Below, one piece after another: positions 45,092 through 53,029 of a stretch of 64,000 bases of DNA. The notes beneath the pieces are model-generated. The model was not told the DNA's origin. It did no database searches and was given only the letters and a program-made list of their open reading frames with translations. The position numbers were made by a program, and so were the translations under genes. The first letter of the stretch is position 1. Every line of letters starts with the position of its first letter. The DNA comes from Candidatus Kryptoniota bacterium (GTDB lineage: Bacteria; Bacteroidota; Ignavibacteria; Kryptoniales; JAKASW01), in the NCBI GenBank assembly GCA_036567965.1, contig DATCTN010000016.1, positions 1 to 64,000 on the forward strand, given 5' to 3'.

Positions 45092-45402
45092 ATGGCCTTC
45101 GGAAAAAATGGCGAGTAGGAAATTTCCAATGTGGGTTTAAGTCCCGCCATGCGGGATGCCGCATCATTATTGACACCTATAATGACGAAGCGGCAAAACA
45201 AATACTGTTCGACGGCGCCGTAAGGCGCCTAGTTTATCCCGCTCATTAATATTAAGAATGGATAATGCGGGATGCCACAAGGCGGCATTTGTTTCTTCAC
45301 AGCGGAAATTTCCGGCTCAACGAGTTGAGTTGTCAACCATTTTTTCCGATAGCCTTGATTTTTCCTTTGGTACTTTCCTTTGTATCAAGACAAAGGAAAG
45401 TA
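45092..45402. repeat. Repeat C composite, copy 4
   Basis: The stretch GGAAAAAATGGCGAGTAGG, GGAAATTTCC and CCATTTTTTCCGATAGCCTT, ending in the hairpin TACTTTCCTTTG ... CAAAGGAAAGTA (45371-45402), matches 16080-16276 in order. The hairpin has compensatory changes (CTTTCC/GGAAAG versus CTTTCT/AGAAAG). Confidence 0.7.
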
Positions 45403-45715
45403 CATAAGAGTCATTGAGATTCATCAACTCGTAGTTGTTCACTTTTCGCGCTCCATTTGTGTTTACAAATGCGCGCGATCCGCAAGGCGGGCTTTTGCTC
45501 ACCCAAAAGTCCCGCTCTACGCCCGCGTGCCCTCGGGCTTCGGGGTACAAGTATGGGATCCCGTTCATATACAATAATTGTGGAATGGGAAAAGTGAACC
45601 GAAAGTCCGCCTTCTGCGGATGCGCCGCATGAAAAATAATCGGAGGCGCAAAAAGGGTGCCCTGCGAAAACGGTGCCGACTAGAGCGGTCGGGATCGTCC
45701 CGCACTCAGCCGAAT

Positions 45716-45946: not shown

Positions 45947-46861
45947 GTGCAAGTGTCGAAGCGATACAAGTGGATGCACAAAGTCTCGACAGGGCTTCTT
46001 TCACTATTAATCGTGGTGGTAACTGGTGGACGCGCGCGCGCCCAATCCGATAGCGTTTGGGTGGAAGCCCGGGGAAGGTGCTACAGCACAGAAGTAACTC
46101 CGGAAGAGGGGTGGAAGCGTGCGCTTCACGATGCCGAGGCGAATGCAATAAGAAGCTCTCTCGGCGTGAGCATTACCTCCCAAACCTTTGGCGTAACATC
46201 CGAGTCTGTCAACTCCAGGAATCAAAGCGACTACCTCAGCACTTTCTCCGAACTCAATACTTCCACAACCTGCGGTAAGGTAACCTCCGAAGAAATTCTC
46301 GATAAAAAACTCAGCAGCGAGAACCAGATTCCTGTTTATCAAATCACCATCCGCGCCCTCGTGGTCAAGGACAGAGGAGTACCTGACCCGAACTTCAGGG
46401 CGGAAATCCATTTGGATAAAGACACATACTATGACCGTGGTGCCATTGATCGCAATGACGCGGTGAAATTTTCTGTGTCGGTCAATCAGGACTGTTATCT
46501 GTACCTCTTTGACATCATGGCAAACGACTCGGTAATGATTTTGTTGCCGAACGATTATCTCAAAGACAATTTCTATCCCGCTGCTGAAGGCCCGGGCGCG
46601 TTCGATAAGAAGATTGCGCGTCTCCCCATCAACCTCACAGTGGGCTTGCCGCCTGGAAAAGAAACGACGACAGAGATGTTTTATCTGGTCGCTTTGAAGA
46701 AGAAGGTGGATTTCTATTCACAGACAATGACCCACGAATCCGTGGGAATAATACCGACATACCAGAGCGCAATTCTTGATTTTCAGAAGTGGCTCGTGTT
46801 AATTCCACAGGACTTGAGGACAACTGCATCTGCAACCTTCATTATAAAGAGGTTAAGATGA
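45947..46861 (+). CDS. DUF4384-like secreted protein
   Basis: The frame starts at GTG 45947 (GTG 45953 and ATG 45974 are alternatives; no start is clearly best). The signal peptide ends near GGRARAQ. Residues about 40-140 include WVEARGRCYSTEVTPEEGWK and RALHDAEANAIRSSLGV, a pattern of flagellar-assembly/LPP20-type lipoprotein domains. Residues about 168-205 (NDAVKFSVSVNQDCYLYLFD and SVMILLPNDYL) fit DUF4384, a sensor-like domain often linked with caspase proteases or kinases. Its TGA overlaps the next ATG (ATGA), and a caspase-like protein is encoded two genes down. Confidence 0.75.
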   Translation: MQVSKRYKWMHKVSTGLLSLLIVVVTGGRARAQSDSVWVEARGRCYSTEVTPEEGWKRALHDAEANAIRSSLGVSITSQTFGVTSESVNSRNQSDYLSTFSELNTSTTCGKVTSEEILDKKLSSENQIPVYQITIRALVVKDRGVPDPNFRAEIHLDKDTYYDRGAIDRNDAVKFSVSVNQDCYLYLFDIMANDSVMILLPNDYLKDNFYPAAEGPGAFDKKIARLPINLTVGLPPGKETTTEMFYLVALKKKVDFYSQTMTHESVGIIPTYQSAILDFQKWLVLIPQDLRTTASATFIIKRLR

Positions 46862-47361
46862 AACAGAGAACATTTTTCATGATTTGTCTTGGGAGCGTGG
46901 CGTGCGTGGCGCTCAGCAGTAAACCCATTTTTTCTCAAGAGATAACTCTCACGAATGTCTCATATTCGATGAGAGACAGCGACGTAGTGGTCCATTATGA
47001 TCTCAACGGGCCGACGGATAAGCCCTACAAGGTTCAGCTTGTCCTGAGAAGAGAATCGCAGCCTTTCTTCAAGATGCTTCCAAAGTATATTTCGGGTGAC
47101 GCCGGCACAGGGTCATTCTCCGGTAACAATAAAGAGATCGTCTGGCATCTTTATGATGAAATTCCTTACGGACTCGACGGGGAGGACTTTTACTTTGAAG
47201 TCAACGCTACTCTCATGGGAGTAGCAAAGGGTGGGGCATCCTGGATGTACTATGTGGGAGGCGCTATCGTTGTAGGCGGGGCAGCTGTCATATTTGGCCC
47301 TGACATATTCAAAAAGGCCGGCGGAGGAAACCAATTCCCCGTTCCGCCAGCAAGGCCTTGA
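46858..47361 (+). CDS. Secreted protein with C-terminal membrane helix
   Basis: The ATG lies in the ATGA overlap with the preceding stop and follows AAGAGG, so translation is coupled. The 167-residue protein has a signal peptide (cut near SKPIFSQ-E), a beta-rich domain (DVVVHYDLNGPTDKPYKVQL, NNKEIVWHLYDEIPYGL) and near the end a hydrophobic glycine-rich segment (YYVGGAIVVGGAAVIFG) followed by a Pro-rich tail. Proteins of this plan often accompany DUF4384/caspase genes in Bacteroidota. The exact role is unknown. Confidence 0.65.
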   Translation: MKQRTFFMICLGSVACVALSSKPIFSQEITLTNVSYSMRDSDVVVHYDLNGPTDKPYKVQLVLRRESQPFFKMLPKYISGDAGTGSFSGNNKEIVWHLYDEIPYGLDGEDFYFEVNATLMGVAKGGASWMYYVGGAIVVGGAAVIFGPDIFKKAGGGNQFPVPPARP

Positions 47362-47379
47362 GAGGATGGAGATGATTCT

Positions 47380-49155
47380 ATGAAGCAAATTCTCTTTCTA
47401 TGTGTAATGTTTTTGACCGGCGCTGCTTTTGGACAGACTGCCACCGGCAGAACCCAGGCAGGATCTCTGAAGCCCGTAATTCAGACTACAAATCCGGGTG
47501 AAGCGGCGAACGTGAAAAATCAAATAAACGCCTACAGTCCCTTCTTAACTGCCGATATCACATTCAAAGATTCATCAGGTGATAATGTTTTGGGTGCCGA
47601 TGAAAGCGCAGAGGTCATTGTCTTGCTGAAAGACATTGGTGGAAAGCCAGCGCAGGAATGCAAGGTGGAGCTGGTGGCTTCGGCGGAGAACTCAAGCATC
47701 GACGTTCTTAATCCACCCGTTATTCCGCGCCTTGGGTCCAACGAGGAGACGTCGACGCGTGTGCTCTTGAAGGGTTCTCACCACATCTCCACAGGTAATG
47801 TTGAGTTTACGCTCAAGGTGCTTGAGAAGAACGGATTTGACCTCGACCCCGAAAAGGTGCTCGTTGTCCCGACCCAGGCATTTCAGCCGCCGAATGTGGA
47901 ACTGGCCGACTATAGTATTCAGGATCTCAACAGAACCGGGAAGATCAAGAAACGTGAACAGGTGTCTGTGACTTTGAGGCTTCAGAACAAAGGTGGAACT
48001 ACAAGTTACGGTACCGTCGCATCGCTTACTCTCGGGCAAAATATTATGTCGCTCGATTCCGCTGCCGTGGAACAGGATAAAATTTTCCATTCAGCTTTCA
48101 AGATAGGTGACTTGAAACCGGGGGACTATAGGGACGTGACCACGAGCTTGATTACGAACGACCGTGCGACCGAAGTGCGCATAGAGATTGCCGTTGATGA
48201 CCGGAGCGGAGAATTTACCACGTCCAAGACGCTCGACCTTCCGTTCGATGCGCCACTGGCTAAACCTCAGATGACTGTACTTGCAGCCAGGAAGACCGAA
48301 GAAGCGAACATCCCCGACGTGGCCAACCTGAAACTTGATATCGGCGAGAATCTCCCTGTTGCAGCGCGGGTGAAGTCTGATGCTTTTGCTGTAGTTATAG
48401 GAAACAAAGATTACAGCAAAGCACCATCTGTGGACTTTGCAATAAACGATGCGGCATTAATGAAGCGATACCTGACCACAACCATGGGCTATCAGTCTGA
48501 CAACATCATTTATATAGAGGATGCTTCGCAGTCTGACATGACCCGCGTATTTGGAAATGAGACAAATTACAAGGGCCAGCTGTACGACTATACCGCGAAA
48601 GGTGGCGAAGTCTTCATTTATTACAGCGGACATGGAGCTCCTGAGACCGACTCGAAGGAAGGTTACATCGTTCCGGTGGATTGCGATCCGGCACATGTTG
48701 CCCTTAATGGTTACGCGCTGAAAACTCTTTACTCCAATCTTGACAAGATCGACACAGAAAAGGAATTGAAACACGTGACAGTCGTTCTGGATGCGTGCTT
48801 CTCCGGGAGTTCAGTTAAAGGCACCCTTCTTGCCAACGTTAGCCCAATTTATGTCACTGTAAACAAGAATGCGATGGCCTCCAGCAATGCAACGATCATA
48901 ACAAGTGCGAGCGGCGACCAGGTGAGCACCTGGTATCCAGATAAACAGCAGAGTCTGTTTACATATTTCTTCCTCAAGGGTCTCCAGGGCGGAGCTGACT
49001 ACAAGCACAACAACACTGTGACCGCGAAACAGTTATACGAGTTCACTGCCGACGAGCTGAATGGAGTCCCGCGATGGTCAAGACGCCTTAGCAGCAAAGA
49101 CCAAACACCAACATTTTATGGAAGCGACTGGGTGATTTATGAAGGAGCTAAGTGA
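47380..49155 (+). CDS. Caspase-like (C14) protease with CARDB-like region
   Basis: The 591-residue protein has a signal peptide (MKQILFLCVMFLTGAAFGQ). Residues about 50-290 are CARDB/Ig-like beta domains (NVLGADESAEVIVLLKDIGG, REQVSVTLRLQNKGGTTSYG). The caspase domain runs from AFAVVIGNKDYSKAPSVDFA (about 330): catalytic His in FIYYSGHGAP (about 418) and catalytic Cys in VVLDACFSGSS (about 473). Both are intact, so it should be a metacaspase-type cysteine protease. With its signal peptide it acts outside the cytoplasm. It is 18 bases after the previous gene in the same transcript, and the next, giant type IX protein starts just after or overlapping its end. Confidence 0.88.
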   Translation: MKQILFLCVMFLTGAAFGQTATGRTQAGSLKPVIQTTNPGEAANVKNQINAYSPFLTADITFKDSSGDNVLGADESAEVIVLLKDIGGKPAQECKVELVASAENSSIDVLNPPVIPRLGSNEETSTRVLLKGSHHISTGNVEFTLKVLEKNGFDLDPEKVLVVPTQAFQPPNVELADYSIQDLNRTGKIKKREQVSVTLRLQNKGGTTSYGTVASLTLGQNIMSLDSAAVEQDKIFHSAFKIGDLKPGDYRDVTTSLITNDRATEVRIEIAVDDRSGEFTTSKTLDLPFDAPLAKPQMTVLAARKTEEANIPDVANLKLDIGENLPVAARVKSDAFAVVIGNKDYSKAPSVDFAINDAALMKRYLTTTMGYQSDNIIYIEDASQSDMTRVFGNETNYKGQLYDYTAKGGEVFIYYSGHGAPETDSKEGYIVPVDCDPAHVALNGYALKTLYSNLDKIDTEKELKHVTVVLDACFSGSSVKGTLLANVSPIYVTVNKNAMASSNATIITSASGDQVSTWYPDKQQSLFTYFFLKGLQGGADYKHNNTVTAKQLYEFTADELNGVPRWSRRLSSKDQTPTFYGSDWVIYEGAK

Positions 49156-49219
49156 TCGACGTATTGACGGGTGCACTCCTGAGAAGCGGTTTTCCGGATC
49201 GTCGATTCGATTGGGAGAT

Positions 49220-52200
49220 ATGACGATGAGAAGGTGTCGAGTATACACGGCAGTCCTTGCCGCATGCCTGACTATGATGACGGCTTTTACGTTACAGTCT
49301 TACGCCGGTGGTAACACTCCGATTAAGATTCACAAAGGCGAGAAAACCGTACTTTCCACGGTTCTCAAGAATATGGTCCCACCAAACGCTGCGGAGAAAG
49401 TTGTCATGAATCCCAAAGTGGGAGGATCGAAATCGCGGGTGACGAGCGATTTAGGCAAGCGGGTGTCGGCCGACTCGGTTTCCTGGGTGCAAACGAATGG
49501 TCCATACGGAGGATTGGTAAACGCGCTTGCCGTAAATTCCTACGGGTACATTTTCGCAGGAACCTATGCAGGAGGAGTCTTTAAATCGACAGACAACGGG
49601 AACAGCTGGACTCAAGCCGGCTTGACAAATACCTACATCTACTCGCTGGCAGTCAACTCCACTGGATACATTTTCGCAGGCACTGAGGGTGAGGGACTTT
49701 ATCGATCGGAAGACAACGGCAACAGCTGGGCGCAGCTGACCGGCGGTTTGAGTGCTACCAGTAATGTCTATTCATTGGCAGTCAATGCATCGGGGTACAT
49801 TATTGCCGGAGTCGATACCGCGGTCTACATCTCCAAAGACAACGGGAGCAGTTGGACCCTGATTGGACACGGACCCCGGGCTTATGCACTGACGTTTAAC
49901 GCATCCGGATACATTTTTGCCGGAACGAGCGAGGAGATAGCGTATACGACGAACAGCGGCTCAAGCTGGACGAATCTTCATGGCTTGAGCAGCGGTGTTT
50001 CTTCGCTCGTTGTTAGTACCTCCGGCTATATTTTCGCCGGGACCTGGGGCAGCGGCGTTTATCTTTCTACGAACAACGGAGCAAGTTGGACTCCTTTAAC
50101 CAATGGATTATCGAATAACGTTGTTAACTCGCTTGCGATAAATTCCTCGGGCTACGTTTTTGCCGGCACAACCGGAGGCGTGTTTCTTTCGACAAACAAC
50201 GGATCCAATTGGACCCTGGTGAACGCCGGGTTGGCTAACGGCTATGTTGCATCGTTGTCGGTCAATTCTTCCGGATATGTTTTTGCCGGATCGTGGGGTG
50301 AAGGTGTCTATCTTTCAACTGACGACGGAACTACCTGGACACAGATGAACTCCGGGTTTACATCAAGCAATATCTGGTCGCTTTCGGCAAATTCGTCCGG
50401 TAATATTTTTGCAGGAGCCGATGGAGGAGGGATCTATGAATCTTCAGATAGAGGGAGCAGTTGGGCATTATCCGGTTTGATAGGGAAGACAGTTCGCTCT
50501 ATATCATTCAATTCGGCAGGCAACATTTTTGCAGGGACAAGCGGCGGTGTATTCATCTCGTCAAACAGCGGTACAAGCTGGACTCAGTCAAACACCGGCC
50601 TGACTGATACCACTGTCTATTCGTCAGTAATCAATTCATCCGGCCATATCTTTGTCGGAACGGATACTGAAGGCGTATATCGTTCGACGAACAACGGCGC
50701 TGCCTGGACGCATGTGAACAGTGGTTTGGGAGATAGCTCCATCACATCACTGGTCATCGATTCCTCCGGCCATATTTTTGCAGGAACGTGGGGAGATGGT
50801 GTGTACCTTTCGACAGACGACGGTACGAGCTGGTCGCGGAGTGGCCTGGCGAATAGTGAAGTCTATTCGTTTGCCATTAATTCATCCGGGAATATTTTTG
50901 CCGGGACATGGGGAAATGGAGTTTACATCTCAACAAATGGAGGCGGAAGTTGGACTGCTGTGAGCACCGGCCTTGCAAATACTCATGTCCAGTCTTTGGC
51001 AATTAATTCCTCAGGCTACATCTTCGCCGGGACGTGGCTCGGTGGAGTTTACGAATCGACGGATAACGGCGCCAGCTGGAGCCTGACAGGTTTGAGCGGT
51101 GATGACATCCAGTCGGTGGCACTAGATTCGACCGGTTATCTATTTGCAGGAAGCCTGGGTGGAGGAGTATATCGTTCGAGCAACTCGACCATTGTTGTGC
51201 CGTCCAAGCCGTCGCTTGCAGGTCCGGCAAATGCTTCGTCATACGTCTCTATCAATCCTACGCTGACATGGAATGTCACGACCGGAGCAACGAGTTATAG
51301 ACTACAGGCGTCAACCGATTCAACTTTTGCCACAACGATTTACGATGCAAGCGGATTGACTGGCACATCCAGGAGTCTGAGCGGCCTGGCGTATTCGACG
51401 AAGTATTACTGGCATGTAGATGCGAGTAACTCGGCAGGTACCGGTGCATGGTCGGCAACCTGGAGTTTCACCACGGCGAGTGCATCACCTCCTGTGCCGA
51501 CGCTTGCCAGCCCTGCAAATGGATTGACAGGAGTGGGGACCAAACCCACATTTACATGGAACGCTTCTCCAGGTTCTACAAGTTACGAGCTGCAGGTATC
51601 GAAGGTGTCCGCGTTTTCTTCCACCGTTTTTGACAGGTCTAATATCGCTTCGACTTCACAGAGCGTGAGCGGACTATCCAGAGGGACAACATATTACTGG
51701 CGGGTAAATGCAAGCAACCCGAACGGCACGAGCGGCTGGTCGACCGTAGACGTCTTTACAACGTTCACATACCAGTCTTCGATTCAGGTCTCAACGCAGT
51801 ACACTCCTCCTGCCACTATAGATTCTTCACATTACCGGATGATTGGCCTGCCTGGAGATATTGATGTTCTTCTATCGAATGTTGTTACGGGTACGCAGCG
51901 AAAGGATTGGAACGCATATTGGGACAATGGCGACAATCAAAACTATTTGGAGGAGTACGACGGCAGCGGGAAATTCTATTTTCTTCCAGGCACAGCCTTT
52001 TGGATACTTAGCAGGGATTCTTTTTCTGTATCACAAAACGTGACAACCGTGACTTTGGACACGGCCGACTGCTTTTCGATAACCGTTCACAGCGGTTGGA
52101 ATCTTATTTCAGATCCGTTCGAAAAGAGCGTCGACTGGTCGTCGGTACAAAGCCTGAACGGCACGTCTCAGCCAATCTGGGCCTTTTCCAGTGGTTCTTA

Positions 52201-53029
52201 TTCTCAATCGTCGACACTCGATCCATATGAAGGGTATTACTTCTTCAATGACATCGGAGCCTCTCAGCTTAGAATCCCTTACGTTTATTCTCCGACGGTT
52301 ACCGGTGTAGCTCGCCTGGAAAAGGTCGAAGACCAGAATCTTGCCATGACGTTATCGGAAAATCAGATTAGTCTGTCTTCAATTACGGTAGGGGTGAGAC
52401 CCATGTCGGGAGGAGGAAACATATTCGCCCCGCCTGGTAATTTCGAGCGGGCGAGAATCTGTGTCGTTGACTCCACTGTACATGCCGGGTGGAAGGAGCT
52501 CGTAACAGATTACAGGGACACGATCGGGACAGGTCAGGAGTTTGATTTCTATGTGAGAAACAGGACAGGTAAATCTCTGAAGTTATCTTCTACCACAGGG
52601 ATCAGCCAATACGAGGTTTACCTGATCGATAAGGATCTCAACAGGTCGTACAACCTCAAAGGCTCGACGGGGATCGCGATCCCATCATATAACAAGATCA
52701 AGAACTACTCGATTCTCATCGGTGACAAACCGTTTATTGACGCCAAGCTTGCAGAACTCCAGCCCAAAGATTTCCTTCTCTACCAGAATTATCCTAACCC
52801 GTTCAACCCGGTTACAGTCATTCGATTTGAAGTTCCGAGGACAGAGCGGGTGTCATTGGCAATCTATGATGTGTTGGGGAGGATGGTAAAGAGTATAGTG
52901 GACGAAAACATCTCGCCGGGTTATTATGAAGTCCCGTTCGACGGGACAGGTCTGTCAAGTGGAGTATATTTCTACAGGCTCTCTGCCGGTCCGTTCACGC
53001 AAGTGAAGAAGATGGTATTGCTCAAATAG
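49220..53029 (+). CDS. Giant type IX secreted protein with about 15 propeller-type repeats
   Basis: I chose ATG 49220 (GGGAG just upstream, signal peptide MTMRRCRVYTAVLAACLTMM ending near SYAGG); in-frame ATG 49139 overlaps the protease gene and would bury the signal. Residues about 90-660 consist of some 15 tandem repeats of about 40 residues with the theme SSGYIFAGTxGxGVYLSTxN then GxSW. These are the blades of a BNR/YCF48-like beta-propeller. Two fibronectin type III domains follow (about 660-752, 755-850), then a beta-rich region and the type IX sorting domain (about 1180-1269, YQNYPNPFNPVT ... KKMVLLK). It is probably an adhesin or scaffold at the cell surface, perhaps processed by the linked caspase. 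Confidence 0.88.
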   Translation: MTMRRCRVYTAVLAACLTMMTAFTLQSYAGGNTPIKIHKGEKTVLSTVLKNMVPPNAAEKVVMNPKVGGSKSRVTSDLGKRVSADSVSWVQTNGPYGGLVNALAVNSYGYIFAGTYAGGVFKSTDNGNSWTQAGLTNTYIYSLAVNSTGYIFAGTEGEGLYRSEDNGNSWAQLTGGLSATSNVYSLAVNASGYIIAGVDTAVYISKDNGSSWTLIGHGPRAYALTFNASGYIFAGTSEEIAYTTNSGSSWTNLHGLSSGVSSLVVSTSGYIFAGTWGSGVYLSTNNGASWTPLTNGLSNNVVNSLAINSSGYVFAGTTGGVFLSTNNGSNWTLVNAGLANGYVASLSVNSSGYVFAGSWGEGVYLSTDDGTTWTQMNSGFTSSNIWSLSANSSGNIFAGADGGGIYESSDRGSSWALSGLIGKTVRSISFNSAGNIFAGTSGGVFISSNSGTSWTQSNTGLTDTTVYSSVINSSGHIFVGTDTEGVYRSTNNGAAWTHVNSGLGDSSITSLVIDSSGHIFAGTWGDGVYLSTDDGTSWSRSGLANSEVYSFAINSSGNIFAGTWGNGVYISTNGGGSWTAVSTGLANTHVQSLAINSSGYIFAGTWLGGVYESTDNGASWSLTGLSGDDIQSVALDSTGYLFAGSLGGGVYRSSNSTIVVPSKPSLAGPANASSYVSINPTLTWNVTTGATSYRLQASTDSTFATTIYDASGLTGTSRSLSGLAYSTKYYWHVDASNSAGTGAWSATWSFTTASASPPVPTLASPANGLTGVGTKPTFTWNASPGSTSYELQVSKVSAFSSTVFDRSNIASTSQSVSGLSRGTTYYWRVNASNPNGTSGWSTVDVFTTFTYQSSIQVSTQYTPPATIDSSHYRMIGLPGDIDVLLSNVVTGTQRKDWNAYWDNGDNQNYLEEYDGSGKFYFLPGTAFWILSRDSFSVSQNVTTVTLDTADCFSITVHSGWNLISDPFEKSVDWSSVQSLNGTSQPIWAFSSGSYSQSSTLDPYEGYYFFNDIGASQLRIPYVYSPTVTGVARLEKVEDQNLAMTLSENQISLSSITVGVRPMSGGGNIFAPPGNFERARICVVDSTVHAGWKELVTDYRDTIGTGQEFDFYVRNRTGKSLKLSSTTGISQYEVYLIDKDLNRSYNLKGSTGIAIPSYNKIKNYSILIGDKPFIDAKLAELQPKDFLLYQNYPNPFNPVTVIRFEVPRTERVSLAIYDVLGRMVKSIVDENISPGYYEVPFDGTGLSSGVYFYRLSAGPFTQVKKMVLLK

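Follow-up and report, generated by a model that had tools for sequence, protein, structure and literature searches.

A caspase-like protease, predicted to be exported, encoded with DUF4384, immunoglobulin-like and type IX cargo proteins in a Candidatus Kryptoniota genome

Bacterial caspase-like proteases are usually discussed as internal enzymes, and a conserved family of exported ones would contrast with that picture. The locus described here raises the question of what such a protease does outside the cytoplasm, and with which partners. The window, namely, the whole stretch of 64,000 nucleotides that was analysed, sits on contig C16 of a 4.15-Mb genome in 32 contigs. It carries in order, on the forward strand, genes for a DUF4384 protein, a small Ig-like protein (SMP), a C14 caspase and a giant cargo of the type IX secretion system (T9SS) (Table 1).

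The four-gene unit and its products

The original prediction read these genes as one transcript from their junctions, which were found as described. The ATGA sequence is common to the DUF4384 and SMP genes, an 18-bp spacer (47362–47379) precedes the caspase gene, and the giant gene either overlaps the latter by 17 bp (first ATG, 49139) or nearly does so (49226). The start at 49226 is the likelier one on sequence grounds, since a GGAG lies upstream and a signal peptide follows; a 70-bp gap results, giving intergenic distances of −4, 18 and about 70 bp. No terminator-like sites were found in the gaps of the unit, and the promoter-like sites (13, versus 10.0 expected from shuffled sequence) are at chance level. 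The flanking genes are 1.8 kb away upstream and 0.4 kb downstream, and the upstream 1.8-kb non-coding stretch contains three G+C-rich hairpins (45214–45491).

Table 1. Features of the four-gene unit, with positions in the window
Feature	Position	Strand	Basis
DUF4384 protein, 304 aa; signal peptide, N-terminal region, DUF4384 at residues 170–239	45947..46861	+	Pfam
SMP, 167 aa; signal peptide, Ig-like beta-sandwich, Gly-rich membrane helix, tail PVPPARP	46858..47361	+	Alignment, AlphaFold2
Caspase (C14) protease, 591 aa; signal peptide, two Ig-like domains, linker, caspase domain	47380..49155	+	Pfam, model
Caspase, two tandem Ig-like domains, residues ~54–290	47539..48249	+	CARDB match, model
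Caspase, catalytic domain, residues 336–580	48385..49119	+	Pfam, conserved residues
Catalytic His418 (YSGHGA), codon CAT	48631..48633	+	Invariant in 34 sequences
Catalytic Cys473 (DACFSG), codon TGC	48796..48798	+	Invariant in 34 sequences
Giant cargo of the T9SS, 1267 aa; signal peptide, propeller with Asp boxes, two Fn3-like domains, sorting domain at the C terminus	49226..53029	+	Pfam, NCBIfam
Giant, propeller region, residues ~107–650	49544..51175	+	14 blade motifs, 12 Asp boxes
Giant, type A T9SS C-terminal domain	52790..53017	+	Pfam, NCBIfam

All four products open with a signal-peptide-like segment, in agreement with the proposal that the parts are secreted. By eye, cleavage is predicted before Gln, after ARA in the DUF4384 protein, FS in SMP and FG in the caspase, a position described as usual among exported Bacteroidetes proteins (PMC5837995). 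The DUF4384 domain was recognised with 45 bits (Pfam cut-off of 27); elsewhere, it terminates an alphaproteobacterial pseudo-orthocaspase with a QC dyad (PMC6426788). With regard to the giant, the predicted type IX protein with about 15 propeller repeats proved to have 14 repeats of the GY(I/V)FAG type, 12 Asp boxes and two Fn3-like domains. Its sorting domain exceeds the curated cut-offs (Por_Secre_tail, 36.7 bits versus 27; TIGR04183, 35 versus 23), which places it among type A T9SS cargoes.

The caspase matches Peptidase_C14 (PF00656) with 60 bits against a cut-off of 21.4, and a CARDB match of 32 bits (Pfam) covers one of its two Ig-like domains. In the structural model, these domains (pLDDT mostly above 80) are followed by a low-confidence linker (residues 295–318) and a caspase domain whose predicted fold matches metacaspase 9 and the MALT1 paracaspase. 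The catalytic residues, thought from the outset to be intact, are so, His418 and Cys473 being invariant in 34 aligned sequences. Two Asp shape the S1 pocket of metacaspases, which takes basic P1 residues (Asp95 and Asp211 in TbMC2; PMC6426788). The candidate equivalents, D357 and D471, are kept in 33 and 34 of the 34 sequences, respectively, the equivalence being drawn from sequence motifs rather than from a solved complex. Since the catalytic dyad and the S1-pocket Asp are kept, the protein is likely to be proteolytically active, and the retention of both pocket positions in relatives makes a preference for Arg/Lys plausible.

A relationship to gingipains or PorU was rejected, as the protein is not of the C25 family and has no C-terminal sorting domain (CTD). 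It matches neither Peptidase_C25 (PF01364), found in four proteins elsewhere in the genome, nor the T9SS sorting domain models PF18962 and TIGR04183. The model for EACC1-associated caspases (NF047832) gives 65.3 bits, below its cut-off of 140, and no EACC1 partner was seen beside the gene. A PADLOC search of the unit matched the caspase domain only, the partner gene set of anti-phage caspase systems being incomplete.

The most informative part of the unit is SMP, a point that escaped the original prediction, in which it figures as a small membrane protein. Searches of Pfam, NCBIfam and PADLOC gave no match for it. AlphaFold2 models residues 31–120 with a pLDDT of about 90–96, the tail being unreliable, and a structure search gave weak Ig-like matches (best E value of 1.8e-3).

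Conservation of the order and the link of SMP to type IX cargo

The check proposed at the outset was a survey of other genomes for the same four-gene order, absence from related genomes counting against the idea. In that survey, the order was present in relatives, at nine loci in six of the 13 genomes of the genus (the window, L051, L052, in which the giant is cut by the contig end, and L053, L054, L055, L056, L057 and L058), as expected of a single unit. SMP lies directly upstream of the caspase in only these 6 of 13 genomes. At the conserved loci, the caspase shares 55% to 76% identity with the window copy and, because the order persists despite such divergence, we consider from this comparison that it is selected; chance adjacency of the four genes was rejected on the same ground. 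The caspases fall into two subtypes, the longer (about 590 residues) with two Ig-like domains and the shorter (about 337 residues) lacking them, and three genomes (G048, G057 and G129) have both, at one locus each. Elsewhere in the class, other families have the same parts in a different order, for instance as giant-SMP-caspase-DUF4384 in L059, or as SMP-caspase-DUF4384-giant in L064.

The genome of the window also holds a paralogue (L004, contig C27) with SMP, a caspase 67% identical to the window copy and a 2472-residue giant in the same order, the DUF4384 gene being absent. By eye, this paralogue adjoins opposite-strand Cas3-like and Cascade-like genes, with an integrase-like gene nearby (L004, 1–5187 and 17498–18001). 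A third caspase is found in L005 (contig C26, 5141–13572), where genes for a TPR-caspase, a DUF4384 protein, a CHASE2 cyclase and an SH3-M48 protease are consecutive, the last two identified by eye from the sequence. At three four-gene loci of sister genomes (L051, L055 and L057), homologues of the L005 genes are again found alongside.

The SMP family occurs in 49 of the 245 genomes of the class, that is, about a fifth. Common to its members are a signal peptide, a single Ig-like domain, a hydrophobic helix rich in glycine and a conserved C terminus, with P-x-P-P-x-R-P found by pattern matching in 27 of 31 proteins. In 17 of 31 cases, the SMP gene immediately follows that of a T9SS-sorted protein, and 27 of the 31 have a T9SS cargo gene directly upstream or at most two genes downstream. 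At least 150 T9SS-sorted proteins are encoded in the genome of the window, an estimated 4% or so of its genes if about 3,500 are assumed; the adjacency is thus far above chance, although the genomes are related and the cases not independent. A caspase, of more than one architecture, follows SMP in only about half of the loci, so that the giant gene is tied to SMP no less than to the caspase. Furthermore, since SMP-giant pairs occur in many Ignavibacteria within polysaccharide-export or other operons without a caspase, this link need not concern proteolysis.

In seven loci (L033, L035, L036, L039, L044, L049 and L070), a giant T9SS gene and SMP lie inside a polysaccharide-export operon with a Poly_export/SLBB protein and a glycosyltransferase 4. 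In several of them, genes for a histidine kinase and a LuxR-type regulator come next. A second protease pairing for SMP is seen in L042 and L048, where a papain-like protease gene is upstream of SMP and of a different caspase; the papain-like protease of L042, which was tested, gives a weak DUF4384 match.

Caspase relatives in other phyla and their partners, some of them hypermutated

When 85,000 species genomes were scanned with the caspase alignment, 80 loci were obtained, 78 of which were scored. These relatives were picked by the caspase alone, regardless of neighbours, and companions were counted within 5 kb on the same strand. They are labelled as Deltaproteobacteria, Nitrospirae, Nitrospinota, Cloacimonadota, Neomarinimicrobiota, Calditrichaeota, Elusimicrobia, Bacteroidetes and others; the homology spans the whole protein across phyla, and the Ig-like domains are kept in 33 relatives. 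A DUF4384 gene accompanies 37 of the 78, which bears out the supposed companionship of DUF4384 and caspases, and an SMP-type Ig protein is likewise present in 37, with either partner in 54 and both in 20. An N-terminal hydrophobic segment is found in 61 of 68 caspases, 30 of 33 DUF4384 proteins and 37 of 42 Ig proteins. The protease and its partners form a widespread and apparently undescribed family; within the open-access literature, to which the search was confined, no description was found of the secreted set of caspase, DUF4384 and Ig partner, or of its T9SS form.

In other phyla, the Ig partner is mostly fused to an FGE-sulfatase domain (PF03781) or a Fib_succ_major/FISUMP domain (PF09603). 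The FGE domain adopts a C-type-lectin fold and is used elsewhere as a retroelement-diversified binding domain (PMC7159879, PMC10907252). In Kryptoniota and their relatives, a membrane helix ending in PPxRP stands in its place, and the window SMP accordingly lacks the lectin-fold head. The types of partner cluster in the caspase tree, in which lectin head and membrane helix are not ordered in time.

At nine loci, a reverse transcriptase gene (PF00078) lies beside the Ig-lectin gene, in some with bAvd (PF22296), and a near-repeat of 118–197 bp of the 3' end of the Ig-lectin gene is found near the reverse transcriptase. Mismatches between the copies fall at template A in 21/22 cases in L074, 18/18 in L080, 21/22 in L084, 15/16 in L089, 18/20 in L093, 23/24 in L094, 22/23 in L107, 15/16 in L111 and 22/24 in L144, L093 and L094 being near-copies of each other. 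As mismatches are almost restricted to template adenines, we assign these loci, from the repeats, to diversity-generating retroelements (DGRs) targeting the Ig-lectin partner of the secreted caspase in several phyla. The reverse transcriptase matches in L072 and L079 were rejected as DGRs acting on the Ig gene, as they lack a template/variable repeat. No reverse transcriptase was found in the genome of the window, and a retroelement was therefore rejected as a part of its unit. Since the SMP-type partner carries a diversified lectin-fold head in other phyla, the kinship of SMP to these proteins points, by analogy, to a role in recognition and not simply in processing at the surface.

Possible functions and comparison with known systems

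The reading that we tentatively favour, at slightly less than even confidence, is an extracytoplasmic recognition-and-proteolysis module, coupling receptor and protease, with an exchangeable recognition head. Judging from the signal peptides, all products would be exported by Sec. In the envelope, the Ig domain of SMP and those of the caspase may form a receptor-protease pair, with the DUF4384 protein as a constant accessory, probably a scaffold or an anchor. The lectin-fold head found in other phyla, hypermutated at some loci, would read an external ligand, while in Kryptoniota the Ig protein would be held in the membrane by its helix with the PPxRP tail, and the co-encoded giant with its propeller and Fn3 domains, brought to the surface by the T9SS, would take over recognition. 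The caspase would then be switched on when a ligand is contacted or the surface protein is lost, and would cut envelope substrates after Arg/Lys. For the unit of the window, the parallel with hypermutated receptors holds by homology only, because its genome contains no reverse transcriptase. If true, this recognition-and-proteolysis reading would provide a concrete and testable path from external recognition to proteolysis, and it supplies a context for DUF4384 and for an unnamed family of small proteins found mostly beside T9SS cargo. More doubtful is the broader proposal of a widespread, undescribed class of extracytoplasmic immune-like modules, in which a constant secreted caspase and DUF4384 protein would be joined by an Ig partner to a swappable head, namely, a lectin hypermutated by a retroelement in certain phyla and a giant T9SS surface protein in Kryptoniota.

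The same unit might instead process the cell surface, the caspase acting as a PorU-like sortase or maturation protease that trims or anchors the giant, and SMP escorting the latter to the T9SS. The position of the giant gene after the caspase at nine loci and in the paralogue, the proximity of SMP to T9SS cargo and a basic S1 pocket suited to cleavage after Arg/Lys would all fit. PorU is itself a caspase-fold protease, and PorZ is a propeller protein. The two are reported to operate together (PMC8545088). We nevertheless hold this reading to be unlikely, since the caspase family is widespread in phyla devoid of both T9SS and giant, the protease lacks the sorting domain that PorU possesses while separate C25 proteins are available in the genome, and nearly all of the many T9SS cargoes do without a private caspase. 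Of similarly low probability is the view that the DUF4384 protein, SMP and caspase form a module for envelope stress or signalling, with the giant as a hitch-hiking cargo gene, adjacent through shared regulation. The giants do differ strongly from locus to locus, both in length (1140 to 2806 residues) and in make-up (propeller, FG-GAP or Fn3), and genes for histidine kinases, polysaccharide export and papain-like proteases are also found beside SMP-giant pairs; yet the giant stays directly after the caspase at all nine four-gene loci despite the large divergence.

Least probable, in our opinion, is a device for cell death or abortive defence against phages or rivals, seated in the envelope and triggered from outside. 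It would account for the score of the caspase domain against the PADLOC caspase model, the patchy occurrence in the genus and the Cas-like genes adjoining the paralogue, and lectin-fold sensors that are diversified by DGRs and act through caspase or trypsin effectors have been put forward as conflict systems (PMC10907252, PMC7159879). However, known systems of this type rely on cytoplasmic NTPases and on adaptor domains, which are absent from the unit, the PADLOC match is confined to the protease domain, and the unit contains no toxin or pore gene.

Among known systems, EACC1-associated caspases have the caspase domain in common with the unit, which scores less than half of their cut-off. PorU/PorZ likewise joins a caspase-fold protease to a surface partner made of a propeller and a CTD, but the protease of the unit is C14 rather than C25, has no CTD and stands outside the core T9SS. 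C-type-lectin sensors diversified by DGRs, with peptidase effectors, have been published in multicellular bacteria (PMC10907252, PMC7159879), as have orthocaspase-CLec variable proteins in cyanobacteria (PMC7517822). Relatives of the unit similarly pair a retroelement-diversified FGE/CLec domain with a caspase; the published systems are for the most part cytoplasmic, with ties to STAND or MoxR NTPases and to effector-associated domains, whereas the unit is exported with DUF4384 and Ig partners and, in the window, without a retroelement. Fusions of metacaspase and FGE-sulfatase, and caspase genes in operons, have also been described (PMC3501461), whereas the present family has its FGE head on an Ig protein distinct from the caspase, or a membrane helix instead of that head. 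Finally, prokaryotic orthocaspases (MEROPS C14) resemble the caspase of the unit in their His/Cys dyad, p20 fold and acidic S1 pocket, and share the FGE-sulfatase link with its family, but the protease described here is secreted and carries two Ig-like domains in front of its catalytic domain.
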